Positions 4,036 to 42,059 of a DNA stretch of 50,134 nucleotides are shown here, piece after piece. Position 1 is the stretch's first letter. Every line of letters starts with the position of its first letter. The notes beneath the pieces are model-generated. The model made no database searches and was not told the origin of the DNA. It was given only the letters and a program-made list of their open reading frames with translations. The stretch is from Acidimicrobiales bacterium (lineage in GTDB: Bacteria; Actinomycetota; Acidimicrobiia; Acidimicrobiales; VFJN01): positions 1 through 50,134 of the forward strand of contig JAUXRW010000157.1 of the NCBI GenBank assembly GCA_030681555.1, given 5' to 3'. Made by a program: the position numbers and the translations under genes.

Positions 4036-4332
4036 ACTCGACGGCGTCGGCGCGAGGAGATCACCGATCTCGTCCTCGTCAATTCCGAGCAGGTCGACAG
4101 GATGGTGTATGTGTCCTCCCCAACACAAGGCCCGGGCTTGGAGAGCCGCCCTGGAGTGCGCGGGAGGGTGGCCTGCAAAGCGTCGGAGGGGCTCGCTCCC
4201 ATCTCGGTGTGCTCCAGGGTCACGAAGTATCCGCGGTGCACGATCTTCTCGTCCTCGTGGAGTCCCGTCTGGTCGTGCACGGGGCCGGCGGGGACATCCG
4301 GCTCAGGGCCTTGCAGCTCGTTCAGGCCTGGC
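4036..4332 (-). pseudogene. decayed 3' fragment of a CaiB-type CoA-transferase gene
   Basis: This stretch is a near copy of the 3' end of the CoA-transferase gene that ends at 16555. Read on the minus strand it encodes the C-terminal words 'HDQTGLHEDE', 'IVHRGYFVTLEHTEMG' and 'GPCVGEDTYTIL', differing from the intact gene by roughly one base in fifteen. A single-base loss near 4098 throws the last ~20 codons out of frame, although the intact ending 'EDEIGDLLA' can still be read in another frame. Similarity stops abruptly near 4330. There is no start codon context or upstream half of the gene, so this is a remnant, not a gene. It is in the same orientation as the intact copy, forming a direct repeat. 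Confidence 0.85.
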
Positions 4333-16554: not shown

Positions 16555-17790
16555 TCAGCCACCGGTGATTTCGACGGCCTCGGCGGCCAGGAGGTCACCG
16601 ATCTCGTCCTCGTCCATTCCCAGCAGGTCCGAGAGGATGGTGTATGTGTCCTCCCCGACACAAGGCCCGGCCTTGGAGAGCCGCCCTGGAGTGCGAGAGA
16701 GGGTGGCCTGCAAACCGTCGTAGGGGCACGCTCCCATCTCGGTGTGCTCCAGGGTCACGAAGTATCCGCGGTGCACGATCTGCTCGTCCTCGTGGAGTCC
16801 CGTCTGGTCGTGCACGGGGCCGGCGGGGACATCCGGCTGCAGGGCCTTGAGCAGCTCGTTCTGGTCCCAGCCGGCGGTCCAGGCCGCAATGTGCTGGTCG
16901 AGCTCCTCCTCGGCCGACTTGCGGCCCAGGAACGTCAACCACGTCGGGTCGCGGGCCCAATCAGGGTCACCCATGGCTCGGCGGAGGGCCAGCCAGTGAT
17001 CGTCGGTCTCACACGCGATTGCCATCCATGCCTCGTGGTCCCGGACCGGCAGGGTCGGGTAGACCCCGTGCGGGCACGCCAGGTCGGAGCGGTTGCCTCG
17101 GCGGGTAGCGACGCGCCCGTTGACCTCGTAGTCGAGCAGCTCGGTCCCCAGCATCTGAAGGGCCGCCTCGTACTGGGAGAGGTCGAGGTGCTGCCCCTCG
17201 CCGGTGCGCCGCCGATGGTCCAGGGCCGCCACGAGAGCAGTCGCCGCGAAGCGTTGGCTCACGAAGTCGGTGTAGGCGCCGTAGACCGGTACGGGGTCTC
17301 GGTCGGCGTAGCCGCAGATCTCGTAGAACCCCCCGAGGGCGGCCATGATGTTGCCGAACCCCCGGTAGTCCTTCCGGGGACCGGTCTGGCCCTGCATGCA
17401 GGTGGACAACATCACCAGCCCGGGATTGCGTTCGCGGAGCTCGTGATAGCTCATCCCCCAGTTGGCCATGGTCTTGGGGGTGAAGCTCTCCAGCAGGACG
17501 TCGCACCAGTCGACCAGCCGCAAGGCGACCTCACGTCCCAGGGGGTTCATGAGATCCAGTCCGATCCCGAGCTTCGACGCGTTGTAATCGGCGTAGAACT
17601 GGGAGTTGTTGATGCCGGGGACTCCGTCGCGGAAGGGCGGTCCGAGGCGCAGGACGTCGGGCCTGATCGTGGAATCGAGCCGGACCACGGTGGCGCCGTA
17701 GTCGGCCAGGTAGCGGGCCGTCAGGGGCCCGACCCCCACCCAGGACATGTCCCACACCTTCAGTCCTTCGAAGACCTGATCGGTGGTCAT
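16555..17790 (-). CDS. CaiB-type (family III) CoA-transferase A
   Basis: A 411-residue CoA-transferase of the CaiB/BaiF family that moves CoA between carboxylates through an aspartyl-CoA thioester. The catalytic aspartate is D175 in 'GAYTDFVSQR', and 'RRRTGEGQHLDLSQYEA' gives the conserved loop and following strand. The length is standard. The ATG at 17790 lies one base beyond the stop of the previous transferase gene. An ATG-less frame extends 13 codons further but overlaps that gene. Its last ~290 bases exist as a decayed direct repeat at 4036-4332. It is the last of four CaiB genes in direct succession. Confidence 0.93.
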   Translation of the reverse strand: MTTDQVFEGLKVWDMSWVGVGPLTARYLADYGATVVRLDSTIRPDVLRLGPPFRDGVPGINNSQFYADYNASKLGIGLDLMNPLGREVALRLVDWCDVLLESFTPKTMANWGMSYHELRERNPGLVMLSTCMQGQTGPRKDYRGFGNIMAALGGFYEICGYADRDPVPVYGAYTDFVSQRFAATALVAALDHRRRTGEGQHLDLSQYEAALQMLGTELLDYEVNGRVATRRGNRSDLACPHGVYPTLPVRDHEAWMAIACETDDHWLALRRAMGDPDWARDPTWLTFLGRKSAEEELDQHIAAWTAGWDQNELLKALQPDVPAGPVHDQTGLHEDEQIVHRGYFVTLEHTEMGACPYDGLQATLSRTPGRLSKAGPCVGEDTYTILSDLLGMDEDEIGDLLAAEAVEITGG

Positions 17791-25794: not shown

Positions 25795-26979
25795 CTACTG
25801 TCGTTGAAGGATATGGATGATGCAGACGGAACCGGCCCCCATCATGTGGGCCATCCCGGTGCGCGCCCCTTCGACCTGGCGGGAACCCGCCTGGCCACGG
25901 ACCTGAACCGTAGTGTCCCAGATCTGGGCCAGGCCCGTCGGGCCGACGGGATGGCCCCGCCCGATCAGGCCACCGTCGGTCGAGAAGGGTATCCGGCCAC
26001 CGATCTCGGTGGCACCCTCGGCCACCAGCTTGTCACCCTCTCCTTCGCCGCAGATCCCCAGCAGCTCGTAGTAGAGGAGCTCCTCCACCGGGAAGGCGTC
26101 GTGAACATGAACCAGGTCGAGGTCGGCCGGTCCGAGACCCGACTCCTCATAGGCCGCCTGGGAGGTGGAACGTGTCAGCTCCGACGGGCCTACCACCGCT
26201 CCCATGAAAAGGTGTCCGGGGGTGTAGCGCTCGGACTCGGACCGGCTACTGACCACCTTCACCAACGGGTGACCCATCCGATCGCGGACCTGCTCGGCCA
26301 GCTCCCGGTCGGCCACGATGGCGCAGGCTGCCCCACCACCCACCGCGGCCGCCATCATCGACGTGTGCGGGTAGGCGATCATCGTCGAGTTCAGGACCTC
26401 CTCGGCGGTGATCTGGTGGTCGGCCTGGCGCTGGGCGTAGGGGTTGAGCCGTGCGTGATTCCAGTTCTTGGCTGCGATCTTGGCGTAGGTCTCGACCGTG
26501 GTGCCCGCCTCGTGCATCCTGCGCACCGCCCACAAGGCGAAGAACGCCGCCGGGAGCAGTGTCCCCTCGACCGAAGGCTTGAAGAACGCCGACAACATGC
26601 CTGCGCTGAGGGCGCCGCCACCACCACTCATCATCGCCCCAGGGCTGGGGTCGAACCCCAGGGCCATCGCGCAACGGGAGTGCCCGCCGGCGACAGACAA
26701 CACCGCCTCCCGGAAGGCCGAGGAACCCGTCGCCGAGGCGTTCTCGACATGGGCCACCGGTACACCCGTGAGCCCGAAGTCCTTGGCCAGTGTTACCCCG
26801 ACGGTCATGCCTCCGCTGGCGTAGCCGTTGTAGAGCGCCCCCACCGTGTCGAACTCGATGCCGGCGTCGTTCATGGCGTTGATGCCAGCGTCGAACGCCA
26901 TGTCCCGCACCGGTGTGGGCGCGGCCGAGATCCGGTGCATCCCTACACCGATGACGTAGACGTCATGTTCTAGGGCCAT
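25795..26979 (-). CDS. thiolase-like lipid-transfer protein (SCP2-thiolase family)
   Basis: A 394-residue thiolase-fold protein. The position of the acyl-accepting cysteine is S82 ('HVENASATGSSAF'), while the two histidine regions are kept: 'LVHVHDAFPVEE' and 'GRGHPVGPTGLAQ'. Loss of the cysteine argues against classical thiolysis and for a retro-aldolase or lipid-transfer role with the DUF35 partner encoded immediately upstream. ATG 26979 overlaps that partner's end by 17 bases. The frame extends further upstream but only through the partner gene. A glycine-rich loop 'MMSGGGGALSAG' is conserved in the group. Confidence 0.88.
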   Translation of the reverse strand: MALEHDVYVIGVGMHRISAAPTPVRDMAFDAGINAMNDAGIEFDTVGALYNGYASGGMTVGVTLAKDFGLTGVPVAHVENASATGSSAFREAVLSVAGGHSRCAMALGFDPSPGAMMSGGGGALSAGMLSAFFKPSVEGTLLPAAFFALWAVRRMHEAGTTVETYAKIAAKNWNHARLNPYAQRQADHQITAEEVLNSTMIAYPHTSMMAAAVGGGAACAIVADRELAEQVRDRMGHPLVKVVSSRSESERYTPGHLFMGAVVGPSELTRSTSQAAYEESGLGPADLDLVHVHDAFPVEELLYYELLGICGEGEGDKLVAEGATEIGGRIPFSTDGGLIGRGHPVGPTGLAQIWDTTVQVRGQAGSRQVEGARTGMAHMMGAGSVCIIHILQRQ

Positions 26980-27400
26980 CAGCCCCTGCCTCCTTGATCC
27001 GGAACGCGAACGTGCACAGCTCGGTCCCGGCTTCGTCGGTCGAGATCGGCAGTAGGTCGAGCACCATCGGCATGCCGATCTCCCAGTCGCCCTGGGAACC
27101 GAGAAGCCGGGACTGGACCCGCACTCCCTCGGGCAAGTCCACCTGGCCCACGCCATGGGGCTTCCCGCCGGTGGTCATGGCCCCGTACTTCAAGGTCACG
27201 AGCCAGGTCCAGGAGTAAAGGACGCCTTCGCTGGAGAGCAGCCGATCCTCGACCGGCCCAAACGTGATCGGGCAGCGCTTGCGGCGGGGAAAGAAGCACT
27301 CGTCGGCCTTAGGGCTGTACGACCCGATGAGCCGCGGGTGCTGATGAGCTGCATCCGGCATGACGAAATAACCCTCTTCGAGCGGCTGTCGCTCGGCCAT
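26963..27400 (-). CDS. DUF35 OB-fold protein with degenerate zinc ribbon
   Basis: A 145-residue partner-type protein. The ribbon region reads 'ADECFFPRRKRCPI', keeping only two cysteines, so zinc binding as in the paralogue at 13473 (four cysteines) is doubtful. The OB-fold follows ('GVLYSWTWLVTLKYGAM', 'YGAMTTGGKPHGVGQVDLP'). ATG 27400 is the first start of the minus-strand operon and faces the acyl-CoA dehydrogenase gene across 112 bases. It overlaps the thiolase-like gene by 17 bases. Confidence 0.87.
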   Translation of the reverse strand: MAERQPLEEGYFVMPDAAHQHPRLIGSYSPKADECFFPRRKRCPITFGPVEDRLLSSEGVLYSWTWLVTLKYGAMTTGGKPHGVGQVDLPEGVRVQSRLLGSQGDWEIGMPMVLDLLPISTDEAGTELCTFAFRIKEAGADGPRT

Positions 27401-27512
27401 GGGCCCCCCTTCACCGTCGTGGGACGACATGCTCGCGGGCCGAGACACTGCACGCAACTTGATGCTTGTATACGGTACGAAGACCAATGCGACCAAGATG
27501 AAGTGGGGCGAC
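27401..27512. promoter_or_regulatory. divergent promoter region between the catabolic operon and the acyl-CoA dehydrogenase
   Basis: This 112-base interval must drive both the ~12-kb minus-strand operon and the plus-strand dehydrogenase. It contains the only AT-rich pocket nearby (27456-27485), with GTATAC at 27468-27473 and GGTACG just after it. This could be a -10 region (TATACG) and/or a regulator site. No clear long palindrome could be defined by eye. Confidence 0.45.
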
Positions 27513-28793
27513 ATGGCCGACCACACCGTGCAGGACGTCACCGCGGAGCAGGCGGCGCTGAGGACCCAGATCCAACGGTTCCTGGAGTCCAACGCCCGGG
27601 CCCGCAGCCGGAGCGACGACGAGGACGACCCGGGCGGGCTGTTCGACGAGGTCGACGAATCCACCGAGCGCGAGCGGATCGCCCAGTCGCAGTCGTTCCA
27701 GGCTCGGCTTGCCGATGCGGGGTTCGCCGGGATCACCTGGCCGAAGGAGTACGGCGGCGCGGGGATGTCGCCCCGCGAGCTCGAGATCTTCAACGAGGAA
27801 GCGGCCGGCTACGAACTCCCCACCCGGATCTTCATGATCGGCCACGGGATGTGCGGCCCCACGTTGCTGGCACTGGGAACCGAGGAGCAGAAGCGCCACT
27901 ACATACCCCCGATGCTGCGCGGGGACGAGATCTGGTGCCAGCTGTTCTCCGAACCCGGCGCGGGATCCGACGTCGCCAGCCTCCAGACCCGCGCGGTCCG
28001 TGATGGTGACGAGTGGACGGTCAACGGTCAGAAGGTATGGACCTCGGGCGCCCACTACGCCGACTACGGGATCCTGATCGCGCGTACCAACCCCGACGCC
28101 CCCAAGCACCGCGGCATCACCATGTTCATCGTCGACATGCGCTCCCCCGGGATCGAGATCCGACCTCTGCGCCAGATCACCGGCGGCGCCAACTTCAACG
28201 AGGTGTTCTTCACCGACACCCACATCCCTCATGCCAACGTCGTCGGCGACGTCGATGAAGGGTGGCGCGCCGCGATCACCGTGTTGATGAACGCGCGCAT
28301 GGCCGGGGTCTCGGCCCAGGGCGGTGGTGGCGGCATGGGTGGTGCCAGCGTGCGCTCCCTCATCGCGCTGGCCCGCGAACGCGGGGTCGATGGTGACCCG
28401 GTGGTACGCCAGCTGCTGGCCGGCCTCTGGATCCGATCCACGATCCAGCGCTACACGGGTATCCGAATGCGCGAGACGGCTCGGAGTGGGCGCGTGCCCG
28501 GACCGGAGGGTTCAATCGCGAAGCTCTACGGTGCTCAGCTGAGCAGGGACATGGGTTCGGCAGCGGTCGCCATCGCCGGGACCGGCGGCCAGGCCTGGGA
28601 CGAAGGGGCGCGGGGAGGGGACCGGTGGGCCATGGCGGTTCTCTCCGCCCCGGGTAGCGGCATCGCCGGTGGCACGGACCAGGTCCAGCGGAACATCATC
28701 GGCGAGCGTGTGCTGGGGCTGCCCAAGGAGCCCCAGGTCGACCGGGAGACGCCCTTCCGCGATCTGCTCGTGGGGACCCAGCGCGTCAGCTGA
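27513..28793 (+). CDS. acyl-CoA dehydrogenase
   Basis: A 426-residue FAD-dependent acyl-CoA dehydrogenase that would introduce the alpha,beta double bond before hydration. Typical segments are 'GITWPKEYGGAGMSP', 'CQLFSEPGAGSDVASLQTRA' (FAD/substrate loop), 'VNGQKVWTSGAHYADYGIL' and the C-terminal 'GGTDQVQRNIIGERVLGLP'. A glycine-rich run 'QGGGGGMGGA' lies before the helical C-domain. The start is taken at ATG 27513; ATG 27498 is five codons upstream. It is transcribed divergently from the minus-strand operon and is the only acyl-CoA dehydrogenase in the window, so it probably serves that pathway. Confidence 0.95.
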   Translation: MADHTVQDVTAEQAALRTQIQRFLESNARARSRSDDEDDPGGLFDEVDESTERERIAQSQSFQARLADAGFAGITWPKEYGGAGMSPRELEIFNEEAAGYELPTRIFMIGHGMCGPTLLALGTEEQKRHYIPPMLRGDEIWCQLFSEPGAGSDVASLQTRAVRDGDEWTVNGQKVWTSGAHYADYGILIARTNPDAPKHRGITMFIVDMRSPGIEIRPLRQITGGANFNEVFFTDTHIPHANVVGDVDEGWRAAITVLMNARMAGVSAQGGGGGMGGASVRSLIALARERGVDGDPVVRQLLAGLWIRSTIQRYTGIRMRETARSGRVPGPEGSIAKLYGAQLSRDMGSAAVAIAGTGGQAWDEGARGGDRWAMAVLSAPGSGIAGGTDQVQRNIIGERVLGLPKEPQVDRETPFRDLLVGTQRVS

Positions 28794-28970: not shown

Positions 28971-30056
28971 TCAGTAGCTGATGACCGAGCGGATGACCTC
29001 GCCCGCTTGCATGGCGCGGAAGCCGTCGTTGACCTCGTTCAAGGAGATCGTGCTGCTCACCATGGCGTTCAGATCCAGCTGCCCGGATTCGACGAGGCCG
29101 ACGAGTCGGGGGAAGTCCCACGACACCTGGGCCGAGCCGTACAGGCTGCCCTGGATGATCTTCTCGCCGAAGATGAGATCCCCGATCGGCACCTCGAGCA
29201 GGGCGTCGAAGGCAGGCACCCCCACGGCCACCACCATCCCGCGACGACGGACCATGTTGTAGGCCTGAGTCAGCGTGGCCGCGTGACCGATGACCTCGAA
29301 GGCGTAGTCGACACCGCGACCTTGGGTCAGGGCCTTCACGGCCGTGACCGGGTCCTGACCTCCACCGGCCAGCACGCCGTGCGTCGCGCCCAGCTTCATC
29401 GCCATGTCGAGCTTCGATTGCACGGTGTCGACGGCGACGATCATCGACGCGCCGGCGATCCTGGCCCCCTGGATGGCGGCCGTACCGACGCCACCGCATC
29501 CGATTACCGCCACGGTCGAGCCCGGCTCCACCTTGGCGGTGTTCAGTACCGCACCGGTACCCGTCGTCACGCCGCATCCGATGAGCGCGAGCTGCTCCAC
29601 CGGGACATCGGTCTCGACCTTCACGACCGAGCGCTCGTGGATCACGGTGCATTCCGCGAAGGTGGCGCAGCCCCCCAGCGCCCCACCGACCATGGCACCG
29701 TCGGATCGGGTGAACTTCGGCGGAGCGAAGAAGCCCACCTCGCACAGTTGGCTCTGGCCGCGGACGCAGTGGAAGCACTGCCCGCAAACCGGGATGAAGC
29801 TCACCACGACCGTGTCGCCGGGCTTGACCTTCTCGACGCCGGGGCCGACGGCCTCGACCGTGCCGGCTCCCTCATGGCCCAGGATGCTCGGGCCCGGAAT
29901 CGGGAGCGTCCCGTTCAAAACCGAGAGGTCGGAGTGGCACAGGCCACTGGCGCCGTAGTGAACCAGGACCTCACCCACACCCGGGTCGGTGAGCTCGAGG
30001 TCCTCCAGCGGCATCTCGCTGCCCTGACCCACGAAAATCGCACCTTTGACCTTCAT
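28971..30056 (-). CDS. zinc-dependent alcohol dehydrogenase (MDR family)
   Basis: A 361-residue medium-chain dehydrogenase. Catalytic zinc ligands are C40 ('GLCHSD'), H61 ('LGHEGAG') and C161 ('IGCGV'). The structural zinc site C91, C94, C97, C105 is complete ('CGQCFHCVRGQSQLC'). The NAD-binding loop GCGGVG is at 186-191. The pattern is closest to class III/NDMA-dependent or mycothiol-linked dehydrogenases of actinobacteria, but thiol dependence cannot be read here. ATG 30056 follows GGGGG about seven bases upstream. It is monocistronic: 177 bases without a recognisable gene separate it from the dehydrogenase at 28793. Confidence 0.94.
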   Translation of the reverse strand: MKVKGAIFVGQGSEMPLEDLELTDPGVGEVLVHYGASGLCHSDLSVLNGTLPIPGPSILGHEGAGTVEAVGPGVEKVKPGDTVVVSFIPVCGQCFHCVRGQSQLCEVGFFAPPKFTRSDGAMVGGALGGCATFAECTVIHERSVVKVETDVPVEQLALIGCGVTTGTGAVLNTAKVEPGSTVAVIGCGGVGTAAIQGARIAGASMIVAVDTVQSKLDMAMKLGATHGVLAGGGQDPVTAVKALTQGRGVDYAFEVIGHAATLTQAYNMVRRRGMVVAVGVPAFDALLEVPIGDLIFGEKIIQGSLYGSAQVSWDFPRLVGLVESGQLDLNAMVSSTISLNEVNDGFRAMQAGEVIRSVISY

Positions 30057-30529
30057 CGTCCCCCCTTGGTCGACTGGACTCCCACCGACAGGCCGGGGCC
30101 CTATGAGACACAGGCACATCTTGTCGTACGCCGGGCGGTCCTGCCATCGCCTCGGGCTCGACCCGTTCTGGGCGCACTCGGCGCGGGCAGTCGGTCCATG
30201 GCCGTCCCGACCCCACAACTGACCCGTAGGTCCGCAGCCGCCCAGATGGCCCACCGGCCCTCGGCCATCCTCAATCGTCGGTCATGGTGGCCGCATCTTC
30301 TTCCCATCGCTGTTGGAGCGGCGCCGGCGTATCGATCGATGTTCGAGGTGCCTGACGCCATCGTCGTCGTCGGGCACCTTCCCGACTTCACCGAGCCGTC
30401 GTCGGTAGAGCCCTGTTCAACTAACGTCCCCGGTCGCCGTCCATGCGAGCCGGGCCCGACCTCTCGGCAGTGCCGTACCATTTGACGACCAACCTTCGGC
30501 CTCCCTCGAATCCCGACCAGGAGAACCAC
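30057..30529. other. 473-base intergenic region between divergent genes
   Basis: The region holds promoters for the alcohol dehydrogenase (minus) and the fusion protein at 30530 (plus). No coding remnant could be recognised on either strand. An AACTAACGT patch at 30419-30427 and TACCAT near 30476 are the AT-richest elements on the plus side. GGAGAA at 30519-30524 is the ribosome-binding site for GTG 30530. Confidence 0.4.
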
Positions 30530-32887
30530 GTGGCTCAGCTCCTCCCCCGCCGTGCCCTCCACGCTGCCCTCCGCGCCCTCGGCCCGGCGGTGCGCTCCGA
30601 GCGGCTTCCCCTGCGGTTCCGGCGGGCCATCACCGACCGGGCGTCGATCACGGGCTCTCCCCCAGGAGGTGTCAGCCATGCTCCGCGAGGCCTCGGCGGC
30701 GTCAGCGGTGATTGGGTCGAACCCCAACAGGGCGTCGGTCCGGGCTGCGTACTGTACCTCCATGGCGGGGGCTACGTGCTCGGGTCGGCCGCGAGCCACC
30801 GCAATGTCGTGGCCCACCTGGTGGACCGGCTCGGCGTCCCTGCCTTCGTGGCCAACTACCGGCTTGCGCCAGAACACCCCTGGCCGGCGGCACTGGACGA
30901 CGCGGTGGCGGCTTACCAGGCCCTGCTCCGAGAGCGCCCCGGCGAGCCCATCGCGGTGATCGGCGACTCCGCCGGTGGCGGTCTGGCCCTGTCGCTGGCC
31001 ATGGCCGTGCGCGACCAGGGCACCCCAGATCCGGCGGTGATCGCCATGATCTGCCCGTGGCTCGATCTGGCCTCGCCTCGAGACCCGGGCCGAGGCGACG
31101 GCGTGCTCGACGCCTCCGCCCTCGACCGCTGGGCGCACGCCTACGCACCGCGTGGGACGGACCGCTCCGATCCCTCGGTGTCGCCCCTGCTGGGCCAGCT
31201 GGCGGGCCTCCCACCGCTCGTGGTCCACTCCGCGTCGCTCGATCCGCTGGTGGAGGACGCGCGACAGCTCGACATCCGTGCCCGCGACGCCGGCGCCGAC
31301 ATCACCACGACGGAGTACCCCGGGCTCTGGCACGACTTCCACCTGTTCGCCGGGCGGCTCCGCGACGCAGACCGTGCCGTCACCGACCTCGCGGCGCAGC
31401 TGTCGCGCTACGTCGGCGCTCGTCGCGACCCGCGGGTGGTGGTGGTAGGGGCAGGCATGTCCGGGCTGTGCATGGGAGCCAAGCTCCGGGCCGCGGGGAT
31501 GTCAGACTTCACGATCCTCGAAAAGGCCTCGGACATCGGGGGGACCTGGCGCGAGAACACCTACCCCGGTCTGAGCTGTGACGTGCCCTCACGCTTCTAT
31601 TCGTACTCGTTCCTCCCGAACCCGAGCTGGACCAGCGTCTTTTCCCCCGGTGGCGAGATTCAGGGATACTTCCAGCGAGCGACCGACGAGCTCGAGCTGC
31701 GACCCCACATCGAGCTCGGGGTCGAGGTCGACCAGGCGACGTGGACGGGCGTCGAGTGGGAGGTGGTCGCCGCCGACGGCCGCCGCTGGTCTGCCGATGC
31801 ACTGGTCACCGCCACCGGTGTGCTCCATCACCCGCGCTTTCCGGACATCGACGGCATCGACTCCTTCGAAGGCGCTGCATTCCACTCGGCGCGCTGGGAT
31901 CACTCGGTCCCGCTCGACGGGCGACGGATTGCCGTCATCGGCACCGGCTCCACTGGAGCGCAGATCGTCGCGGCGATCGCCGGCGACGTCGAGCAGCTCT
32001 ACGTGCTGCAACGCAGTGCTCAGTGGATCCTCCCGGTCCCGAACCTGCGCTACTCCGAGCGCTCGCAGCGCCTGCTCGCCAGGCGGCCGATCCTCAACCG
32101 GGCGTCGTACAGCGCCTACCGAGTCGTGTTGGGCAACGTCTTCGCCCGGGCCGTGACCCAGCCCGGGCTCCTCCGCCGAGCCGTCTCGGCGGCCTGCCGG
32201 TGGAACCTCCGCCTCGCAGTGCGCGACCCGGCCCTGCGCCGCACGCTCACCCCCGATCACCAACCGATGTGCCGTCGCCTGATCATGTCCGCCGGGTACT
32301 ACCCCGCCGTTCAACGACCGAACGTGGAGGTGGTCACGACGGGTATCGAACGCGTCGAGCCCACCGGCGTCCGGCTCAGCGATGGCAGGCTGCTCGAGGT
32401 CGACGTCATCGTCTTTGCCACCGGCTTCGATGCCCACGCCTACATGCGCCCCATGAAGGTCACCGGTCCGGACGGGTGGACGCTTGACGAGGAATGGGCC
32501 GAGGGCCCGCGCGCCTACCGGACCGTCGCGCTGCCGGGCTTCCCGAACCTGTTCACGCTCATGGGCCCCCACAGCCCCATCGGCAACTCCTCCCTCATCT
32601 CTGTGGCTGAGGCGCAGGCCGACTACATCGTGGGTTGGCTCGAGGAGATGCGCCGCAGCTCGCTCCAGGCCGTGGCGCCGACGCGAGCGGCCACCGAAGC
32701 GTTCAACGCCGAGATGCGGGCGGCGATGCCAAACACCATCTGGACCTCGGGGTGCACGAGCTGGTACCTGGGCAAGGACGGGCTGCCCGAGCTGTGGCCC
32801 TGGACTCCCGAGCGCCACCGGACGATGCTGGAGGACCTGCATGCCGAGGAGTTCGAGGTCGTCTCGGCTCCGGCTCCTTCAGCCTGA
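30530..32887 (+). CDS. fusion: N-terminal alpha/beta-hydrolase + C-terminal Baeyer-Villiger-type flavin monooxygenase
   Basis: A 785-residue two-enzyme protein. Residues ~60-295 are an HSL-type alpha/beta-hydrolase: oxyanion motif HGGG 78-81, nucleophile S147 in GDSAGGG, D238 and H268. Residues ~300-785 are a flavin monooxygenase: FAD loop GAGMSG 307-312, a complete type I Baeyer-Villiger fingerprint F446-x-G448-x3-H452-x3-W456, NADPH loop GTGSTG 471-476, and '[11 protein letters not shown]'. A Baeyer-Villiger oxygenase turns a ketone into an ester or lactone that the attached esterase could hydrolyse at once. The start is GTG 30530 with GGAGAA six bases upstream. A terminator-like hairpin follows the stop. 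The frame is continuous across the junction, so the fusion is not an assembly frameshift. Confidence 0.92.
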   Translation: MAQLLPRRALHAALRALGPAVRSERLPLRFRRAITDRASITGSPPGGVSHAPRGLGGVSGDWVEPQQGVGPGCVLYLHGGGYVLGSAASHRNVVAHLVDRLGVPAFVANYRLAPEHPWPAALDDAVAAYQALLRERPGEPIAVIGDSAGGGLALSLAMAVRDQGTPDPAVIAMICPWLDLASPRDPGRGDGVLDASALDRWAHAYAPRGTDRSDPSVSPLLGQLAGLPPLVVHSASLDPLVEDARQLDIRARDAGADITTTEYPGLWHDFHLFAGRLRDADRAVTDLAAQLSRYVGARRDPRVVVVGAGMSGLCMGAKLRAAGMSDFTILEKASDIGGTWRENTYPGLSCDVPSRFYSYSFLPNPSWTSVFSPGGEIQGYFQRATDELELRPHIELGVEVDQATWTGVEWEVVAADGRRWSADALVTATGVLHHPRFPDIDGIDSFEGAAFHSARWDHSVPLDGRRIAVIGTGSTGAQIVAAIAGDVEQLYVLQRSAQWILPVPNLRYSERSQRLLARRPILNRASYSAYRVVLGNVFARAVTQPGLLRRAVSAACRWNLRLAVRDPALRRTLTPDHQPMCRRLIMSAGYYPAVQRPNVEVVTTGIERVEPTGVRLSDGRLLEVDVIVFATGFDAHAYMRPMKVTGPDGWTLDEEWAEGPRAYRTVALPGFPNLFTLMGPHSPIGNSSLISVAEAQADYIVGWLEEMRRSSLQAVAPTRAATEAFNAEMRAAMPNTIWTSGCTSWYLGKDGLPELWPWTPERHRTMLEDLHAEEFEVVSAPAPSA

Positions 32888-32914
32888 GAACCGCTTGGTG
32901 AGCAGGAACGCAGA

Positions 32915-32940
32915 AGGCCCCACTCCGAGAAGTGGGGCCT
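32915..32940 (+). terminator. perfect 10-bp stem hairpin after the fusion gene
   Basis: AGGCCCCACT (32915-32924) and AGTGGGGCCT (32931-32940) pair perfectly around a six-base loop, 28 bases after the stop of the fusion gene. There is no T-run on the plus side, so this is a strong stem but a non-canonical terminator. It separates the fusion gene from the convergent Fic locus. Confidence 0.65.
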
Positions 32941-33022
32941 GACCTGCGATTCCGTTGGTGGCGGGGGCGAGATATGCCCACTAGCGGCAACACTGGAATT
33001 GCCCCGCTGACCTGCTCGTTTT

Positions 33023-34416
33023 CTACCGCGCGCTGACGCGCTCGTGCAGGTCTTCGCGCGTCCAGTTGCGTCCATCGCGGTCGACGGCGATGCGAGTCGC
33101 TCGGAGGGCTCGTCGCATCGCGCGCCGGTACCGAGCAGCGTCGACGACAGCGCGGATCACGGGATCAGGTGCCCCCGTCTTTCCATCGATGCGGAAGAAA
33201 GTTCGCTGAGAGACCGGATAGTGGAAGAAGCTCCGCCGAGAGCACTCTCGTCGTTCAGGCCGCAACGGGTTCGAGCCGGTGAGTCCGAGGAGCTCGGCGC
33301 TCGTGTACAGACGACTGGGCCGTCCTCGCCCGCTCGGTTGCACCGTTCCGTGCTCCACGAGGATGCCGGCAGCGGCGAGCTCTGCCAGCGCCGCGTTCGC
33401 GGACTTCAACGGGATGGCGAGCTCGCTCGCCACGGTCGGACCCGTGAGCACGAGATGCCGAGGCAGGAGGTCGAGCACGCGCCAGGCCGCGGCATCGCTC
33501 CGAACGCGCCTCGAGTCCGCTCGAGGCCCGGCGAGTCGCTCACGCCACTCGCGCTGCAGTCGCCCGACCGATGCGACCAGCTCCTGTTGCGCTCGGCCGG
33601 CGCCCGACACCGCCTCCGCGAACCAACGGACCCACGCGTTGTGGTCTCCCAGGCGAAACAGCACGAGCCCAGAGCTGTAGCCACCGACGTCGGCAGCGAT
33701 ACGGGCGCTACCGGCGGCGGCGTCACGAGCGACAGGCGGCGGACGAAAATCCACGCGACGAGCACGCGCCCAACGCGCCCGTTGCCGTCGGCGAAGGGAT
33801 GGATGATCTCGAACTGCGCGTGAGCGATCGCGGCTTGGCTCACGGGGTCCAGGTCGTCGCGGTTGACGTAAGCGATGAGATCGTCGACCAGGGCGGGGAC
33901 CTCGTCCGGCGGCGGTGTCACGAGGTGGGCGTCGAGCGGTGACGTGCCGCCGATCCAGCCCTGCTCCGTTCGAAGCACGCCGACGTGCTGGGCGGGCGTC
34001 GGACTCCCGGTCATGAGCGTCCGGTGCCACCCTCACAGGCTTTTGACCGTGAGAGGCCCGACGTGCGCCTCCTCGACCGCCTCAGCCACCGCGGCGAGGT
34101 TCGCCGCCACCCACGCAGCGGCCGATGGAACCCCACTCTCGTCGGCCTCAGCGAGGACGATGTCGACGACCGGCGCGGTCACGCCCTCGATAAAGGACGA
34201 CGCCACACCCTCCGCTCGCAGCAGGAGCCGAGCCAGCGCGGCGAAGTCCTCCGGCATGGTTTCGGCGCCGTGCTCGACAGCCGCGTGCGCCCGGGCTGCC
34301 TCGGCGACGGTCCGGGCGTCGAGCCACAGGTCCCGATCATCCAGCCGGGTCGGCACAAAGGCGCGCGCTCGTCGGCCTCGCCACACGATCGGAACCTCCA
34401 CGCCCGCTGGCTCCAT
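33023..34416 (-). pseudogene. broken Fic family protein gene (copy 1)
   Basis: This is a disrupted copy of the intact Fic gene at 40575-41738, closely similar throughout. Reading from ATG 34416, the frame is stopped by TGA at 34033-34035, where the intact copy has TGC (Cys). The same frame then resumes ('WHRTLMTGSPTPAQHVGVL') through the Fic core HPFADGNGRVGR. A frameshift near 33710-33720 follows 'LVTPPP', after which the winged-helix-like C-terminal half continues in another frame to 33023. The inhibitory helix motif SSFIEG is retained. Unlike copy 2, the end is extended by ~75 residues ('PVIRAVVDAARYRRAMRRAL', 'WTREDLHERVSAR'). With two lesions the protein cannot be made. Confidence 0.88.
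33191..33250. repeat. two imperfect 30-bp tandem units at the 3' end of Fic copy 1
   Basis: Units 33191-33220 and 33221-33250 share GCGGAAGAA/GTGGAAGAA followed by CGCTGAGAG/CGCCGAGAG. Closely related units, three of them, occur at 40472-40558 downstream of Fic copy 2. They are part of the duplicated module. Confidence 0.7.
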
Positions 34417-34419
34417 GAG

Positions 34420-34458
34420 CCGCCTTTCGTACGCCTACTGCTGTAAGTGTACGTTATT
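34420..34458 (-). promoter_or_regulatory. promoter/operator region duplicated in front of both Fic copies
   Basis: The 16-base GTAAGTGTACGTTATT (34443-34458) recurs identically at 41765-41780 in front of the intact Fic gene, together with the adjoining CGTACG segment. It is the AT-richest point of the locus and presumably contains the Fic promoter. On the minus strand, TACACT and TACATT/TACAGC are possible -10 hexamers. Confidence 0.5.
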
Positions 34459-34466
34459 CGGGCGGG

Positions 34467-34813
34467 TCAGCCCCAGAAGATCGAGATGGGGTCGGCCTCG
34501 ACCTCCTCGAGGAGATCCCGGATCGACGGAGTCGGTGGGGTCTGGTCGTAGACGTGGAACTTCGAGTGGCGGTCCCGCCAGTAGAGGCTCCCCTCCCGGC
34601 GTGCCTTCACATAGCGAAGGCGAGCGATCGGACGGCGCGTCGACTCGGGGCCGTAGTCCTCGCGCCACGCGGACGGCATTCAAGGATCGTGAGCGCGCCA
34701 GCCTCGACCGCGAGCTCGTACTCCACCTCGTCACGAGCATCGAACGGCATCTCTGCGTTGAGCTCGTCGACGAAGCGTCGAGCGCGCGCAACGTCGAGCT
34801 CAGGAAGTTCCAC
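34467..34813 (-). pseudogene. frameshifted DUF3024 family gene
   Basis: From ATG 34813 one frame gives 'MELPELDVARARRFVDELNA' and 'YELAVEAGALTILECRP'. The adjoining frame continues as 'WREDYGPESTRRPIARLRYV', 'YWRDRHSKFHVYDQTPPTP' and ends 'ADPISIFWG' at 34467. Together they make a complete DUF3024 protein of ~115 residues. One base has been lost near 34670, between 'LECRP' and 'WRED'. DUF3024 has no assigned function. It is followed 49 bases downstream by the ImmA/IrrE pseudogene's end on the same strand. Confidence 0.8.
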
Positions 34814-34861
34814 GATCGCCTCGCATGTGACACCTTCCGCCGGCGCCGCGGTAGGGCGACA

Positions 34862-35372
34862 TCAGCGAACCCCGAGACGGTCGGCGAGCCTGTCGAACGT
34901 GGATGCCCTCTTCACGTCGAGCAACCGAAAGGCTCGCGTGTACGGATTGCGACCCTCCTTCGTGCTCGCGATCAGCGCTCGCGCGAACCGACGGCTCACC
35001 TGAGCCGCCTTGGTGTTGTGGTGGTAAACGCCAACGCCGCCGCGGGTCGCGAGTAACTGGGCGACACGCACGGGTTCCACGTCCAGCTCGACGAGGTACT
35101 CCTCCCAGGTCAGCGCGCCGGCCTCGCGCAGCCGACCGAGAACCACCTGGGGGCTGACGCGGAAGTGCTCGGCAAGTGGCTGCAGCTGGACCCGCAGGTT
35201 CCCGTTCGCATTGAGCCGGTCGCGGAACTCGGCCATCGGCACGAGGAGCTCGGCAGCGACCTGGTTGCATCACCGCTCGACGTCGTTGGCGCGAACGGAA
35301 CGCGGGTCGAGATCGGAGAGCGCCGTCTCACCGAGCCCGAGGTGGGCGAGCTCGTGCACGAGCGCCTCATCG
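34862..35372 (-). pseudogene. ImmA/IrrE-type metallopeptidase gene with a premature TGA
   Basis: The minus strand encodes a zinc-metallopeptidase of the ImmA/IrrE family: 'HELAHLGLGETALSDLDPRS' with the HExxH metal site near 35342-35356, then 'VRANDVER', a TGA at 35270-35272, and in the same frame 'CNQVAAELLVPMAEFRDRL' to 'RALIASTKEGRNPYTRAF' and 'FDRLADRLGVR'. Related proteins have Trp at the stop position, so TGG has become TGA. The N-terminal part ahead of the HELAH motif is also missing or frameshifted. Intact members cleave XRE-type repressors of mobile elements or toxin-antitoxin pairs; no such repressor remains nearby. Confidence 0.8.
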
Positions 35373-35460
35373 GCAGGCGCGAGAATCGTAGATCTGGCCG
35401 TCGCCGGTCGTCTTGACAACGGTGCCGCCCTGCAGCAGGGCGGAATCAGAGCCCGCGCCC
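35373..35460 (-). other. short cyclase-like motif remnant
   Basis: Between the ImmA pseudogene and the stop of the next gene, one minus-strand frame reads 'LLQGGTVVKTTGDGQIYDSRA', closely resembling the metal-binding 'VVKTTGDG' segment of class III nucleotidyl cyclases. Only about 15 residues match, so this may be a gene scrap or coincidence. Confidence 0.3.
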
Positions 35461-35462
35461 GC

Positions 35463-38057
35463 TCATGCCGGGACGGTTGCGGAGAAGAAGCTGCGGAGCG
35501 CCTCGGCGATGTCGGCGCGCACCCTCGCTCCCGACAGCACAATGTCGACCATGGTCAGCGAAGTGTGGGTGTGTCCACGGCCGAACACCCGCCGCACCGA
35601 GACTCCGGCGCTCTCGAGCGCGTCGGCGTATGCGGCCCCCTCGTCGCGCAGCGGGTCGAACTCGCAGTAGACGACCGTTGCCGGCGGAAGCCCGGCGAGG
35701 TTCTCTGCCCGCAACGGCGACACTCGGGGATCGAGGCGGTCGGAGGGATCGACGTAGTGGTCCCAGAACCAGCGCATCATCGCCGTCGTGAGGGTGTAAC
35801 CCTCGGCGTTCTCCTCGTAGCTCGACCGCGAGAAGTCGTAGTTGGTGACGGGGTTCACGAGCAGCTGGCCGACCAGGTCGGGACCGCCCGCATCGCGTGC
35901 GAGACGGGCGACGACGGTTGCGAGGTTGCCGCCGGCGCTCCAGCCGGCCACGGCCAGCTGGCCCGGGATGCCGCCGAGCTCGATGGTGTTGGCTGCCACC
36001 CACTCCAACGCGGCGAAGGCGTCGTCGACGGCGGCGGGGAACCGGTGCTCGGGTGCGTGCCGGTAGTCGGCCGACACCACAACGGCGCCGGAGCGCGCGC
36101 AGAGGTCGCGGCAGAACGGATCGTCGGAGTCGTGGCTGCCGAGCACCCACCCGCCACCGTGGTAGTACACGACGACGGAATGCGGGCCGGCGCCCTCGGG
36201 CCGGTACAGCCGGTAACGCAGATCGCCTGCCGCTCCGGGGCACACGCCGTCGACGATCTCGGCCACGTCGGGCCCTGGTGGACGCATCCCCGCGCCCTGT
36301 TCGGAGAACGAGCGCGCCTCGGCCGGCGACATCGTGTCCATCACCGGCAGGTCGAGCGAGGCCATGATGTCGAGGACCATCTTCACGTCCGGTTGGAGCC
36401 GGCGAACGATGCCGTCGTTGCACTGGACGCCGGCGAGCCCGGTGAGCTCGAACCCGAGGTAGCCGCGCTCGACGACCTCGTTGCAGATGGCACGGTAGGG
36501 CCCGACACCGCCGATGTAGGGCAGGAACACGCGTGGCTTGCCTGGCACGTTGGCGCCCATGTACCACGAGTTGGCCCGCGGGTAGAGGGTGATGTCGGCG
36601 CAGTCGTTGACGTGCTGCACCCATCCGGCCTCGGCCGTGGCGGTCGGCTCGATCGTGGTGAGACCCTTCTCTCTCATGTCGGAGATGCGATCGGCGATCC
36701 ACTCGACGTGCTGCTCGATCGACACCGTCATGTTCGACAGCACCGAGGGGCTGCCCGGCCCCGTCACGAGAAACAGGTTGGGGAAGCCATCGGTCATGAG
36801 GCCGAGGTACGTGACGGGGCCGTCGGCCCACTTCTGCTTCAGGGTGATGCCGTCCTTGCCCTCGATGTCGACGGCCACGACAGCGCCGGTCATCGCGTCG
36901 AAGCCCGTCGCGAAGACGATGGCGTCGAACTCCATCGACTCGTCCACGGTGTCGACACCGGTTTCGGTGATCGTCTTGAGGGGGTGCTTGCGGAGGTCGA
37001 CGAGGCGAACGTGGGGCAGGTTGTAGGTCTCGAAATAGCTGGTGTCGAGGCACGGCCGCTTCGTGCCGAACGGGTAGTCCTTGGGGCACAGCGCCTCGGC
37101 CGTCTCTGGGTCGTTCACCATCGCGCGGATCTTCTCCCGGAACATCTCAGCCACGCGCTCGTTGGCCACCGGGTTCACCGCCTGGTCGGCGAACACGCTG
37201 ACCGAGAACAGCCCGCCCCGCTCCCAACCCGCCTCGAACCGGGCGCGGGCGTCCTCGTCGGACACCATCGACGACGGCTGGACGTCGCTGGTGGCGGGCA
37301 CGCCGGCGAGCGACCACTTCGCCGCCTCGCGGTACGCGGCGCGATCGTTCTTCAGCTCGGCGAGGGCGTCAGGCGGGGGCGGCCCGTTGCGGGCCGGGAT
37401 CGAGTAGGCCGGCGTGCGCTGGAACACCGTGAGCTGCGCCGCCTGCTCGGCGATCACCGGGATCGACTGGATCGCCGACGAGCCGGTGCCGATCACTGCG
37501 ACGCGCTTGGCGGCGAAGTCGACGCCCTCGTGGGGCCACCGGCTCGTGAAGTAGACCTCGCGACCGAAGCGGTCGGCGCCCTCGATGTCGACCTCCTTCG
37601 GGACCGACAGGCACCCGCTCGCCATCACGTAGTAGCGGCACGAAATGAGCTGGCCGTCGTCGGTACGGATGCGCCACAGACCGGCTTCGCCGTCCCAGTT
37701 CGCGGCGGCGACACGGGTGCCGAAGGTGATGTCGCGTCGCAGGTCGTGCTTCTCGGCGACGAACTGGAGGTAGCGGAGGATCTCGGGCTGGGTGGCGTAC
37801 TTCTCCGACCAGGTCCACTCGTCCTCGAGCTCGGAGTCGAAGCCATAGCTGTAATCGGTCGTCGGGATGTCGCAGCGAGCGCCGGGGTAGCGGTTCCAGT
37901 ACCAGGTGCCGCCGACATCGTCGCCGGTCTCGAAGGCCCGCGCGCTGAGGCCGAGCTGGCGCAATCGGTACAGCATGTAGAGGCCGGCAAACCCGGCGCC
38001 CACCACCACGACCTCGACGTCGGGACGGCTCTCACGTGCTCCGTTCTCCTCCACCAC
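35463..38057 (-). CDS. fusion: N-terminal Baeyer-Villiger-type flavin monooxygenase + C-terminal alpha/beta-hydrolase
   Basis: An 864-residue protein with the same two activities as the 30530 gene but in the opposite order. Residues ~10-535 form the flavin monooxygenase: FAD loop GAGFAG 20-25, NADPH loop GTGSSA 190-195, and '[13 protein letters not shown]' at 381-393. Its Baeyer-Villiger fingerprint is imperfect: F164 and W174 are kept, but the Gly and His positions are R166 and F170. Residues ~600-864 are an HSL-type hydrolase: HGGG 633-636, nucleophile S707 in GWSAGG, D801 in 'EFDPLRDEG', and a histidine at 829 or 831. The start is GTG 38057, preceded by GAGGGGG; the frame stays open to 38162. 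Monooxygenase and hydrolase sequences differ clearly from the other fusion, implying independent origin. Confidence 0.92.
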
Positions 38058-38926: not shown

Positions 38927-39961
38927 TCACACCGTCCGGGCGAACTCGGCAATGGACGCCGCGGTGTCGCGCGAGATGTCGGGGCACATGAACGGGAGGA
39001 TCTCGGTGCCGTGGGCTGTGCCGAGCACCGTGCGGGCCCGAGCCGGCTGGCCGGAGCGCAGCAGCAGCCGGTAGAACTCGATGCCCTCGTCGCGCAAGGG
39101 GTCGCACTCGTTCACCGAGATGTAGACCGGCGGAAGGCCCTTCACGTCCTCCTCGGTGGCGAAGCCGGGCCACGCGAGCGGGTTCTTCTCGTTGTACGCT
39201 TCGATGCCGTAGCCCATCGCGCCACGGTTGTTGTGTAGGTCGAGGAGGATCCCGTTGTTCTCGATCGAGGACGGCAGATCCTCGCGGGGCCACGAGCCTG
39301 CGATATAGGGACACAGCGCGTACAGCCCCTTGACGAGGCCGATGTCGCCGTCCTGCTTCAGCTTGAGGCCGGTCGCGAGCGTGAGGTTCCCGCCGCCGCT
39401 CTCGCCGGCAACGATGATCCGGCCGGCGTCGATGCCCAGGTCGGCAGCGTGGTCGAGGACCCACTTCAGGCCAGACAAGCAGTCGTTCAGACCAGCGGGG
39501 AACGGCGCCACCTCCTCGCAGGACGACGGCGACACGCAGTTGCGGAAGTCGACCATCGCCACGGCCACGCCCTGGGCGGCGATGATGCGACCCCACGCCC
39601 GGTAGTTCCCGTCGTAGGCTGAGAGCGACGCCATCCCGCCACCGTGGATGTAGTACACGCACGGCAGCGGCGCGCCCGGCGAGGTCGGCCGGATGAAGCG
39701 CAGGTGGATCGTGTTCCCGTCGGGCTGGGACGTGACCGCGTGGTCGGTGACGTCGAGGCCCTTCGACGGTGCGATCTCCTCATTGTCGGCCGAATCGAGC
39801 AGCGCGGTGATCATCTGGCGCTGGGCGATGGCCTCGGGCGTCGACGCCTCAGTCACGAGCTGCTCCCTGCTCTCGGCGTCGGTCGTCGTCATGCTCGGGA
39901 ACGCCGCGAGGACCGCCTTGATGCGCGGGTCGAGGCGTGGATCGTTCGCGATGTCGGCCAT
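38927..39961 (-). CDS. alpha/beta-hydrolase (HSL-type esterase)
   Basis: A 344-residue cytoplasmic esterase. Oxyanion motif HGGG is at 106-109, nucleophile S188 in GESGGGN, acid D in 'VNECDPLRDEG' and catalytic H in 'GTAHGTEILPF'. A helical cap region of ~95 residues precedes the core ('TEASTPEAIAQRQMITALL'). No signal peptide is visible. It is the third hydrolase of this type in 10 kb, next to the two monooxygenase-hydrolase fusions, and could act on similar esters. ATG 39961. Confidence 0.92.
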   Translation of the reverse strand: MADIANDPRLDPRIKAVLAAFPSMTTTDAESREQLVTEASTPEAIAQRQMITALLDSADNEEIAPSKGLDVTDHAVTSQPDGNTIHLRFIRPTSPGAPLPCVYYIHGGGMASLSAYDGNYRAWGRIIAAQGVAVAMVDFRNCVSPSSCEEVAPFPAGLNDCLSGLKWVLDHAADLGIDAGRIIVAGESGGGNLTLATGLKLKQDGDIGLVKGLYALCPYIAGSWPREDLPSSIENNGILLDLHNNRGAMGYGIEAYNEKNPLAWPGFATEEDVKGLPPVYISVNECDPLRDEGIEFYRLLLRSGQPARARTVLGTAHGTEILPFMCPDISRDTAASIAEFARTV

Positions 39962-40574
39962 GCGCGAGACCGTATCCCCCGGGTGGCCCCGCGCGTCGGG
40001 CGGTTTCGGCCGTCCTCAGCCAGCTCCGAGGTACGCGCTGACGATGCCGCTGCACGGGTCGAACCTCGGCAGCCCCGCGGAACGTGCTCGGAGGTCAGCG
40101 AACGCAGCGCGCGCGGAGATCGCCGTCGAGCTCCTGGACGAGCATCACGGCCGCCACGACGACGACGGGCCGGACCTCGGTCGGTACCACCACGAACACC
40201 TGCTTTGCAGTGCATGCCCGGAGGTGGCGCCCGGCGATGGTGCCAGCCAACCTGGTCTTGCCGGCGCCAGGTAACCACGACCCGAGCCGAAAACGGCAAG
40301 AGACGAGCCTGTCGCACGCGCTCGTACAGGTCTTCGCGACGCCACATCGGGCCACCGCGATCGGATCGGTTGCGGAGCGCCCGGCGCGCGCGCCGCGATG
40401 GCGCCGCGATAGCGGGCCTCGGCGACGACCCTGCGGACCACGTAGACAGCATGCCGACGGGTGTCGGCGATGTGGAAGAAAACCGCTGAGAGACCCAATA
40501 GTGAAAGGAATCCGCCGAGAGACCCGGATAGCGGAAGAAAACCCGGTGAGAGCCCCTGACGCCTCCGCGCCCGA
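39962..40574 (-). pseudogene. remnant zone: helicase P-loop fragment and degenerate Fic-tail module
   Basis: This 613-base stretch has no intact gene. Around 40180-40275 the minus strand reads 'WLPGAGKTRLAGTIAGRHLR' and 'TAKQVFVVVPTE', the Walker A and following strand of a DEAD/DEAH-type helicase, cut off after ~35 residues. From ~40290 to 40500, frames shifted against each other give 'VYVVRRVVAEARYRGAIAAR' and 'MWRREDLYERVRQARLL', which match the C-terminal extension of Fic copy 1 ('IRAVVDAARYRRAMRRA', 'WTREDLHERV'). A further piece ending 'PRFDPCSGIVSAYLGAG' near 40018 was not identified. Confidence 0.6.
40472..40558. repeat. three imperfect 29-30-bp tandem units at the 3' end of Fic copy 2
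   Basis: Units start at 40472, 40501 and 40531. Each begins GTGGAAGAA-like and contains CCGCTGAGAGACCC or a close variant; the third is truncated. There are no unique spacers between them, so it is not a CRISPR. Two related units are found at the equivalent place of Fic copy 1. Confidence 0.72.
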
Positions 40575-41738
40575 TCACGCTCGGAGCGGGTTCGATCCGG
40601 CGAGGCCGAGCAGCTCGGCGCTCATGTAGAGGCGACTCGGCCGTCCTCGTCCGCTCCCCTGCACCGTGCCGTGCTCGACGAGGACGCCGGCGTCGACGAG
40701 GTCGCGCAGGGCAGCACTCGCCGACTTCAACGGCACGTCGATCTCTCTCGCCACGATCGGTCCGGTCAGCATGAGATGCCGGGGGAGCAGGTCGAGCGCG
40801 CGCCACGCTGCTGCATCGCTGCGCACGCGACGAGAGCCTTCACGAGGTGCTGACAACCGCTCTCTCCACTCGCGCTGCAGTCGCTCGACCGATGCGACCA
40901 GCTCCTGCTGCGCACGGCCGGCGCCCGACACCGCCTCGGCGAGCCATCGCACCCACGAGTCGTGGTCACCCATGCGAAACAGCACGAGGCCCGATCCGTA
41001 GCCCCCGACATCAGCAGCGATCCGTGCGCTGACCGGCGGCGGCGTCACGAGCGACAGACGGCGAACGAGAATCCACGCGATGAGCACACGACCGACGCGC
41101 CCATTGCCGTCGGCGAAGGGGTGGATGATCTCGAACTGTGCGTGAGCGATCGCCGCTTGGCTGACCGGATCGACGTCGTCGCGGTTCACGTAGGCGACCA
41201 GATCGTCGACGAGCCCCGGCACCTTGTCCGGTGGCGGCGTCACGAGGTGCGCGTCGAGCGGCGAAGTTCCGCCGATCCAGCCCTGCTCCGTTCGAAGCAC
41301 GCCAACGTGCTGGGCAGGCGTCGGGCTACCGGTCATGAGCGTCCGATGCCAAGCACACAGGCTCTCGACTGTGAGAGGCCCGGCGTGCGCCTCCTCAACG
41401 GCCTCGGTCACCGCGGCGAGGTTCGCCGCCACCCACGCAGCGGCCGATGGAGCCCCACTCTCGTCCGCCTCAGCAAGGACGATGTCCACGACGGGCGCGG
41501 TCACGCCCTCGATGAACGACGACGCCACGCCCTCCGCTCGCAGGAGAAGCCTCGCCAATGCTGCGAAGTCCTCGGGCATCGTCTCGGCGCCATGCTCGAC
41601 AGCGGCCTGGGCCCGAGCGGTGTCCGCCACAGTCCGGGCGTCGAGTGACAGGTCCCGTTCGTCCAAACGGGTCGGCACGAACGCGCGCGTTCGCCGGCCT
41701 CGCCACACCATCGGGATTTCAACGCCCGCTGACTCCAC
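40575..41738 (-). CDS. Fic family protein, class II (N-terminal inhibitory helix)
   Basis: A 387-residue Fic-domain protein. The catalytic core HPFADGNGRVGR (residues 206-217) is complete, so nucleotide transfer, usually AMP, onto a target hydroxyl is likely. The N-terminal inhibitory motif [S/T]xxxE[G/N] is present as S73-x3-E77-G78 (SSFIEG), which defines class II self-inhibited Fic proteins. A C-terminal winged-helix-like region follows ('LVDAGVLVEHGTVQGSGRGR'). The start is GTG 41738. Target proteins are not predictable; many such proteins act as toxin- or stress-related modifiers. A broken near copy lies at 33023-34416. Confidence 0.93.
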   Translation of the reverse strand: MESAGVEIPMVWRGRRTRAFVPTRLDERDLSLDARTVADTARAQAAVEHGAETMPEDFAALARLLLRAEGVASSFIEGVTAPVVDIVLAEADESGAPSAAAWVAANLAAVTEAVEEAHAGPLTVESLCAWHRTLMTGSPTPAQHVGVLRTEQGWIGGTSPLDAHLVTPPPDKVPGLVDDLVAYVNRDDVDPVSQAAIAHAQFEIIHPFADGNGRVGRVLIAWILVRRLSLVTPPPVSARIAADVGGYGSGLVLFRMGDHDSWVRWLAEAVSGAGRAQQELVASVERLQREWRERLSAPREGSRRVRSDAAAWRALDLLPRHLMLTGPIVAREIDVPLKSASAALRDLVDAGVLVEHGTVQGSGRGRPSRLYMSAELLGLAGSNPLRA

Positions 41739-41759
41739 GAGCCGCCTTCCGTACGCTTA

Positions 41760-42059
41760 CTAATGTAAGTGTACGTTATTCCGACTCTTCTCCCAGCGTT
41801 TCTCCAAGCGGCGCCAGACAACGAGTGGAACGGGCCAATCGCGAGAGCTGTCGAACACGTGGTCCCCGATCTGATCAGGCGCGCTCGCCGCCTCTCGTAT
41901 CGGCGCTGCCAACAGGTCTCTCACAGGTGGCGTCAGGCCGGCAGCAGTCGCGGCCGCGCCGAGCATCGCTTCCGCGGAGGCTGCGCTGATCGTGCACGCA
42001 GCGGCAACCGCAACTGCCGCGTCGTGCGACGTCGTCGGATCTTGCAGCGCTCGCCGCAT
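41760..42059 (-). CDS. hypothetical small alanine-rich protein (doubtful)
   Basis: An open frame of up to 99 residues from ATG 42059 lies between the carboxypeptidase and Fic genes. It reads 'MRRALQDPTTSHDAAVAVAA' and ends 'KRWEKSRNNVHLH'. It resembles nothing I recognise; composition is alanine-rich and mostly helical. Its stop overlaps the conserved element in front of the Fic gene. It may equally be non-coding. The rest of the 353-base gap (41739-42091) holds only the duplicated Fic promoter element. Confidence 0.25.
   Translation of the reverse strand: MRRALQDPTTSHDAAVAVAAACTISAASAEAMLGAAATAAGLTPPVRDLLAAPIREAASAPDQIGDHVFDSSRDWPVPLVVWRRLEKRWEKSRNNVHLH
41761..41780 (-). promoter_or_regulatory. 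promoter/operator element in front of Fic copy 2
   Basis: GTAAGTGTACGTTATT at 41765-41780 is identical to 34443-34458. Immediately before it, CTTAC-TAAT-GTAAG (41756-41769) forms a small perfect inverted repeat that is degenerate in copy 1. It lies 18-42 bases upstream of GTG 41738. Confidence 0.5.

Follow-up and report, generated by a model that had tools for sequence, protein, structure and literature searches.

In a window of 50,134 nucleotides from an Acidimicrobiales bacterium (the whole stretch of DNA analysed here), two genes join a flavin monooxygenase to an esterase, one in the reverse domain order of the other. This arrangement raises the question of whether the two proteins are genuine, separately formed fusions, and whether each might carry a ketone through an ester to an acid and an alcohol in a single chain.

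Two fusion genes with mirrored domain order

Gene A lies on the forward strand, in an open reading frame that is unbroken from an ATG at 30443 to 32887, and encodes 785 amino acids from the GTG start at 30530 (30530–32887, +). Along the protein, the Pfam order is Abhydrolase_3 (PF07859, 1e-56) followed by FMO-like/Pyr_redox_3. The family-IV/HSL esterase core (30749–31342, +; Abhydrolase_3, 1.3e-56) contains the HGGG oxyanion motif and, as GDSAGG, the GxSxGG nucleophile motif that characterize these esterases, and its best NCBIfam match was GESAG_HSLs at 181 bits, under the cut-off of 430. The second domain is of the type I Baeyer-Villiger-like monooxygenase (BVMO) kind (31433–32884, +; Pfam FMO-like/Pyr_redox_3). 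The motif scan found two GxGxxG loops (GAGMSG and GTGSTG) around the fingerprint FxGxxxHxxxW[PD], which reads FEGAAFHSARWD with its histidine present (31865–31900, +), as well as the second BVMO motif [AG]GxWxxxx[FY]P[GM]xxxD, as GGTWRENTYPGLSCD. The AlphaFold2 model of A had a pLDDT of 80.6 and a pTM of 0.75, and among the Foldseek matches listed its oxygenase part resembled BVMOs with a TMt of ~0.7.

Gene B is encoded on the reverse strand, in a frame that is unbroken from a GTG at 38162 to 35463, and yields 864 amino acids from the GTG at 38057 (35463–38057, −). Here the Pfam order is Pyr_redox_3/FMO-like followed by Abhydrolase_3 (PF07859, 9e-73). The monooxygenase domain (36432–38030, −) is of the phenylacetone/steroid-monooxygenase type, and its counterpart in PAMO matched the oxygenase part of the B model (pLDDT 87.8, pTM 0.86) with a TMt of 0.93 and 54% identity. 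The esterase domain, including its cap (35493–36401, −; Abhydrolase_3, 9.3e-73), contains both family-IV/HSL motifs, HGGG and GxSxGG (as GWSAGG), and passes the NCBIfam LipP1 equivalog at 354 bits, barely over the curated cut-off of 350. For all of these domains, in A and in B, the match levels are far beyond chance. Among the Foldseek matches listed from the PDB, none spans both domains of either protein.

The first-pass annotation of this DNA had described A as hydrolase-then-monooxygenase and B as the opposite, with the HGGG and GxSxGG motifs and both dinucleotide loops kept in each, and the single open frames, the Pfam order and the motif scan agree with that description. It had, however, passed over the state of the Baeyer-Villiger fingerprint in B: the second BVMO motif is present, but the strict fingerprint is degenerate (37533–37568, −), with Gly replaced by Arg and His by Phe. 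When B was aligned to the PAMO D66A and R337K mutant chains, the equivalents of the conserved PAMO residues Asp66 and Arg337 were residue 63 and R334. These were invariant across the 36 aligned sequences of the B family (the alignment used 35 near-complete homologues), as were the Ser/Asp/His of the esterase and the Asp and Lys-Arg of the oxygenase.

Surroundings of the two genes

A standalone esterase, C (38927–39961, −; Abhydrolase_3, 1e-32), lies beside the fusions, where the first-pass annotation had placed a third hydrolase. In the esterase trees, C sits on its own branch and forms a separate esterase lineage; a relative of it is found near a B-type fusion at one other locus. On the other side of A is a zinc-dependent, NDMA-dependent ADH-like alcohol dehydrogenase (28971–30254, −; Pfam; TIGR03989, 340 bits, below the cut-off of 440), which could oxidise an alcohol released by the fusion enzymes. 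Acyl-CoA dehydrogenase, a thiolase-like lipid-transfer protein with an OB-fold partner, several CaiB-type CoA-transferases, enoyl-CoA hydratases, a MaoC hydratase and AMP-binding ligases are also encoded around A and B. The region is thus catabolic, and it would fit the degradation of a ketone with a ring or a branched chain. The gene for the lipid-transfer protein adjoins that for the OB-fold protein (ChsH2 C-terminal, PF01796) at 25795–27793, a pairing known from sterol side-chain cleavage aldolases. In the source genome (3.3 Mb), at least 18 B-related stretches and 10 Abhydrolase_3 matches were counted, a large complement of such catabolic enzymes.

Two direct repeats were also observed. 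Copies of a Fic/DOC gene, 84% identical over 1.27 kb (33204–34459 and 40513–41781), bracket B and esterase C. The right copy is intact (40575–41738, PF02661), whereas the left one appears broken, since its parts are spread over different frames and the longest of its open reading frames has no Pfam match. The other repeat has 306 bases and 92% identity (4027–4326 and 16559–16864); because 16559–16864 lies at the 3′ terminus of a gene for a CaiB-type CoA-transferase, 4027–4326 is likely to be a remnant of a gene of that kind.

Distribution and integrity of the fusions

A query with B, using one genome per species, returned 586 encoding stretches, and some 45 of the best 80 of these encode the monooxygenase and the esterase as a single-frame protein. 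The 35 near-complete single-frame homologues are 45–68% identical to B end to end, most of them 59–68%, and the linkers in the family are very short, mostly 1–12 residues. B-type fusions occur in Actinomycetota, Pseudomonadota, Acidobacteriota and Binatota. In the stretches L192 and L093, the monooxygenase and most of the esterase of a B-type fusion are in different frames, which reflects either a decaying fusion or a sequencing error.

Other fusions of the two families were found as well. A further PAMO-type fusion with the monooxygenase first is present in Nevskia and Bradyrhizobium sp. CB82, and four esterase-first fusions are alphaproteobacterial. A plasmid search with A retrieved two distant fusions, WP_012732758 of B. 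glumae, with the monooxygenase first, and WP_010884002 of D. radiodurans pMP1, with the esterase first. Side by side but unfused, the two genes are found in either order, in Bacteria as well as in the archaeon Natronorubrum; their spacing varies from an overlap or a single base to a few hundred bases.

The exact fusion seen in A was found in none of about 1,300 other genomes, which contained only standalone monooxygenases at 59% identity or less, and among 198 genomes of the order its esterase had no relative above about 44%. In four genomes, matches that appeared to read through into the esterase end of A were discarded, there being no esterase beside those genes. With no close homologue of the fusion, A might be a misassembled or decaying gene, all the more as the window is one contig of a 162-contig assembly. 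Nevertheless, the junction in A falls between complete domains and in frame, and codon-position GC holds one frame across the junctions of both A and B, so that there is no sign of the frameshift that the first-pass annotation had suggested looking for. B, in turn, is seen in many independent assemblies, on which ground an artefact was rejected for B, and for A it is unlikely. Overall, we regard it as very unlikely that one of the two fusions is a product of misassembly or frameshift.

Separate origins of A, B and other fusions

The monooxygenase and esterase domains were placed in separate trees, as had been proposed from the first reading of the sequence, and the domains of A and B were placed independently in them. 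B falls inside starred clades of the B-type family in both trees. In the monooxygenase tree, 47 B-type fusions lie in one starred clade of 48, whose odd member (L052) is cut by a contig end. As judged from these trees, the B family descends from one monooxygenase-esterase fusion. A lies outside this family, with the reversed order and both domains in other clades; its monooxygenase groups with standalone enzymes from a different actinobacterial family, to which it is 57–59% identical.

Two genes that combine the same superfamilies in mirrored order, 8 kb apart, might be thought to have arisen by circular permutation or duplication of one from the other. However, the oxygenases of A and B are only 32% identical and the esterases 40% (over 186 residues), and the two proteins lie in different starred clades, each with unfused relatives that are closer. 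Both domain trees reject such an origin, which we consider vanishingly improbable. The claim of independent fusion made in the first-pass annotation is thus borne out by the different clades of both domains and by the AU tests. Joining A to the alphaproteobacterial esterase-first fusions was rejected (AU p 1e-34 for the monooxygenase and 1e-4 for the esterase), as was uniting the latter with the main monooxygenase-first family (AU p 2e-4, esterase tree). That esterase result argues against a single origin of all PAMO-type fusions, although the monooxygenase tree alone does not reject their single clade (AU p 0.09). Taken together, the trees give firmly separate origins to A, to the B family and to the alphaproteobacterial fusions. 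The fusions of B. glumae and D. radiodurans look separate as well, and so, with some uncertainty, does that of Nevskia and Bradyrhizobium, whose esterase could be joined to the main family without rejection (AU p 0.28).

The four alphaproteobacterial fusions group, in both trees, with esterase-then-monooxygenase gene pairs of Pseudonocardia and Streptomyces, and the B. glumae fusion groups in the monooxygenase tree with a monooxygenase-then-esterase pair. In these two traceable cases the order of the pair matches that of the fusion, and it is probable that such fusions arise from adjacent genes, whose order they retain. Two independent fusions within 8 kb had at first been taken as a sign of strong selection. 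Their independence stands, but the argument from proximity is weakened, since the B fusion is old and inherited in a widespread family, A is a singleton, and the closeness of the two is known only from one genome. Recurrence across taxa is better evidence that this step favours linkage.

A predicted ketone-cleaving cascade

We propose that A and B, which evolved separately, are probably bifunctional enzymes, in which a ketone would be converted to an ester, and the ester to an acid and an alcohol, within one polypeptide. The flavin monooxygenase domain, with FAD, NADPH and O2, would insert an oxygen beside the ketone carbonyl to give an ester, which the fused esterase domain would then hydrolyse to the acid and the alcohol. 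This reading best accounts for the domains and motifs, the invariant catalytic residues, the fold match to PAMO and the spread of B-type fusions over phyla, together with the independent ancestry, the occurrence of gene pairs in both orders, the grouping of fusions with same-order pairs and the precedent of acmAB described below. The same reaction logic had been put forward in the first-pass annotation; its backing consists of motifs and homology, from which we infer the activities, the reaction order and the substrates of both proteins. Since the oxygenase of B is of the PAMO/steroid-monooxygenase type, its substrates are likely to be aryl or alkyl methyl ketones or steroid-type ketones, and the similarity to steroid monooxygenase would make a steroid-like methyl ketone one candidate. 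No strong conserved gene neighbourhood was found for the B family, and with gene context so weakly conserved the substrate of B is a guess.

Does the fusion also direct the ester from one active site to the other? The very short linkers of the B family and the confident two-domain model of B would suit a transfer in which the ester reaches the esterase unreleased, as the first-pass annotation had supposed. On the other hand, both domain orders exist and many relatives are separate neighbouring genes, which indicates that no single geometry is required, and we consider directed transfer doubtful. Alternatively, the two domains might be made together but act on different molecules, the fusion serving equal dosage, stability or co-regulation. 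HSL esterases are promiscuous, the gene context is not conserved, and adjacent pairs are common enough that fusion seems unnecessary, all of which speaks for this alternative. Nevertheless, whether fused or not and whichever comes first, the same two families are paired repeatedly in bacteria and in an archaeon, a recurrence that fits consecutive steps better, so that action on different molecules appears unlikely.

Loss of the fingerprint histidine in fused PAMO-type enzymes

The fingerprint histidine links the FAD and NADPH domains. It is missing in all 53 fused PAMO-type proteins, B included, where it is replaced mostly by Phe, Val, Tyr, Leu, Ile or Ser, and is kept in 47 of 53 unfused relatives, the truncated L052 being one of the six exceptions. 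Fusions outside the PAMO type, namely A and those of B. glumae and D. radiodurans, keep it. Three unfused PAMO-type oxygenases of Pseudonocardia (L058, L074 and L076), near the fused clade, are also without the histidine; an arylmalonate-decarboxylase-like gene and a methyltransferase gene lie near them.

The absence of this residue counts against the cascade for B. Mutants of the fingerprint histidine are inactive in HAPMO and impaired in CHMO, yet BVMOAf1, with Gln in its place, is still active (PMC3762062). One could suppose that B, having lost the His and the Gly, has ceased to be a Baeyer-Villiger enzyme and catalyses something else, for instance a sulfoxidation or an oxidase reaction, in line with the contrast between fused and unfused PAMO-type enzymes. 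The activity of the natural Gln enzyme and the invariance of the Asp66 and Arg337 equivalents throughout the B family speak against this supposition, which we hold to be quite improbable; B nests among PAMO relatives and is most likely BVMO-like in its action.

A more speculative thought is that the esterase alters the oxygenase to which it is fused: with the ester consumed in the same chain, a PAMO-type BVMO could, or would have to, drop the histidine. We rate this as unlikely. Loss of the histidine as an effect of fusion was not upheld, because there are only about three origins, for which a sign test is not significant, and the non-PAMO fusions keep the residue. If it were true, the fused enzymes would be a distinct mechanistic class of ketone-cleaving oxygenases that fingerprint-based genome mining misses. 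The degenerate fingerprint by itself would already lead motif-based mining to overlook the B family.

Discussion

B is a member of an old and widespread fusion family that we did not find described, and A is a rare, separate fusion. No description of a natural BVMO-esterase fusion was found in the literature searched, which consisted of openly available papers. Biocatalysis makes wide use of Baeyer-Villiger enzymes, and it is often unclear which hydrolase acts next on the esters that they form; in the progesterone pathway of Caenibius tardaugens, for example, the conversion of testosterone acetate to testosterone has been ascribed to an unknown hydrolase (PMC12239570). A widespread family with both steps in one chain would supply ready-made ketone-cleaving catalysts, and in it one could follow, as in a natural experiment, the passage from operon pairs to fusions.

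Each half of these proteins has known counterparts. The oxygenase of B shares its fold with PAMO (1W4X, 54% identical, with the catalytic Asp and Arg conserved) and with steroid monooxygenase (4AOS, 51–52% identical), but both structures are without an esterase domain, and PAMO has the fingerprint histidine that B has lost. The Abhydrolase_3 domains share HGGG and GxSxGG with family-IV/HSL esterases (LipP1 for B, GESAG-type for A), from which their fusion to an oxygenase sets them apart. In BVMOAf1 of Aspergillus fumigatus, too, a BVMO carries an additional fused domain and has Gln for the histidine, but that domain, removed in the characterised version, is a putative polynucleotide synthase and not an esterase (PMC3762062). 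Both domains are united in a single protein in WP_012732758 and WP_010884002, which are annotated only as alpha/beta hydrolase fold proteins; where they align, they share about 38% and 30% identity, their origins are apparently separate, and the domain order of the B. glumae protein is opposite to that of A. A functional parallel is acmAB of Gordonia sp. TY-5, a two-gene operon of the BVMO AcmA and the esterase AcmB with acetone monooxygenase and methyl acetate esterase activities (PMC6215540). There the same two activities act in sequence and the genes lie side by side, like the unfused pairs found here; AcmA and AcmB, however, are two proteins, whereas A and B would each combine the predicted activities in one polypeptide.
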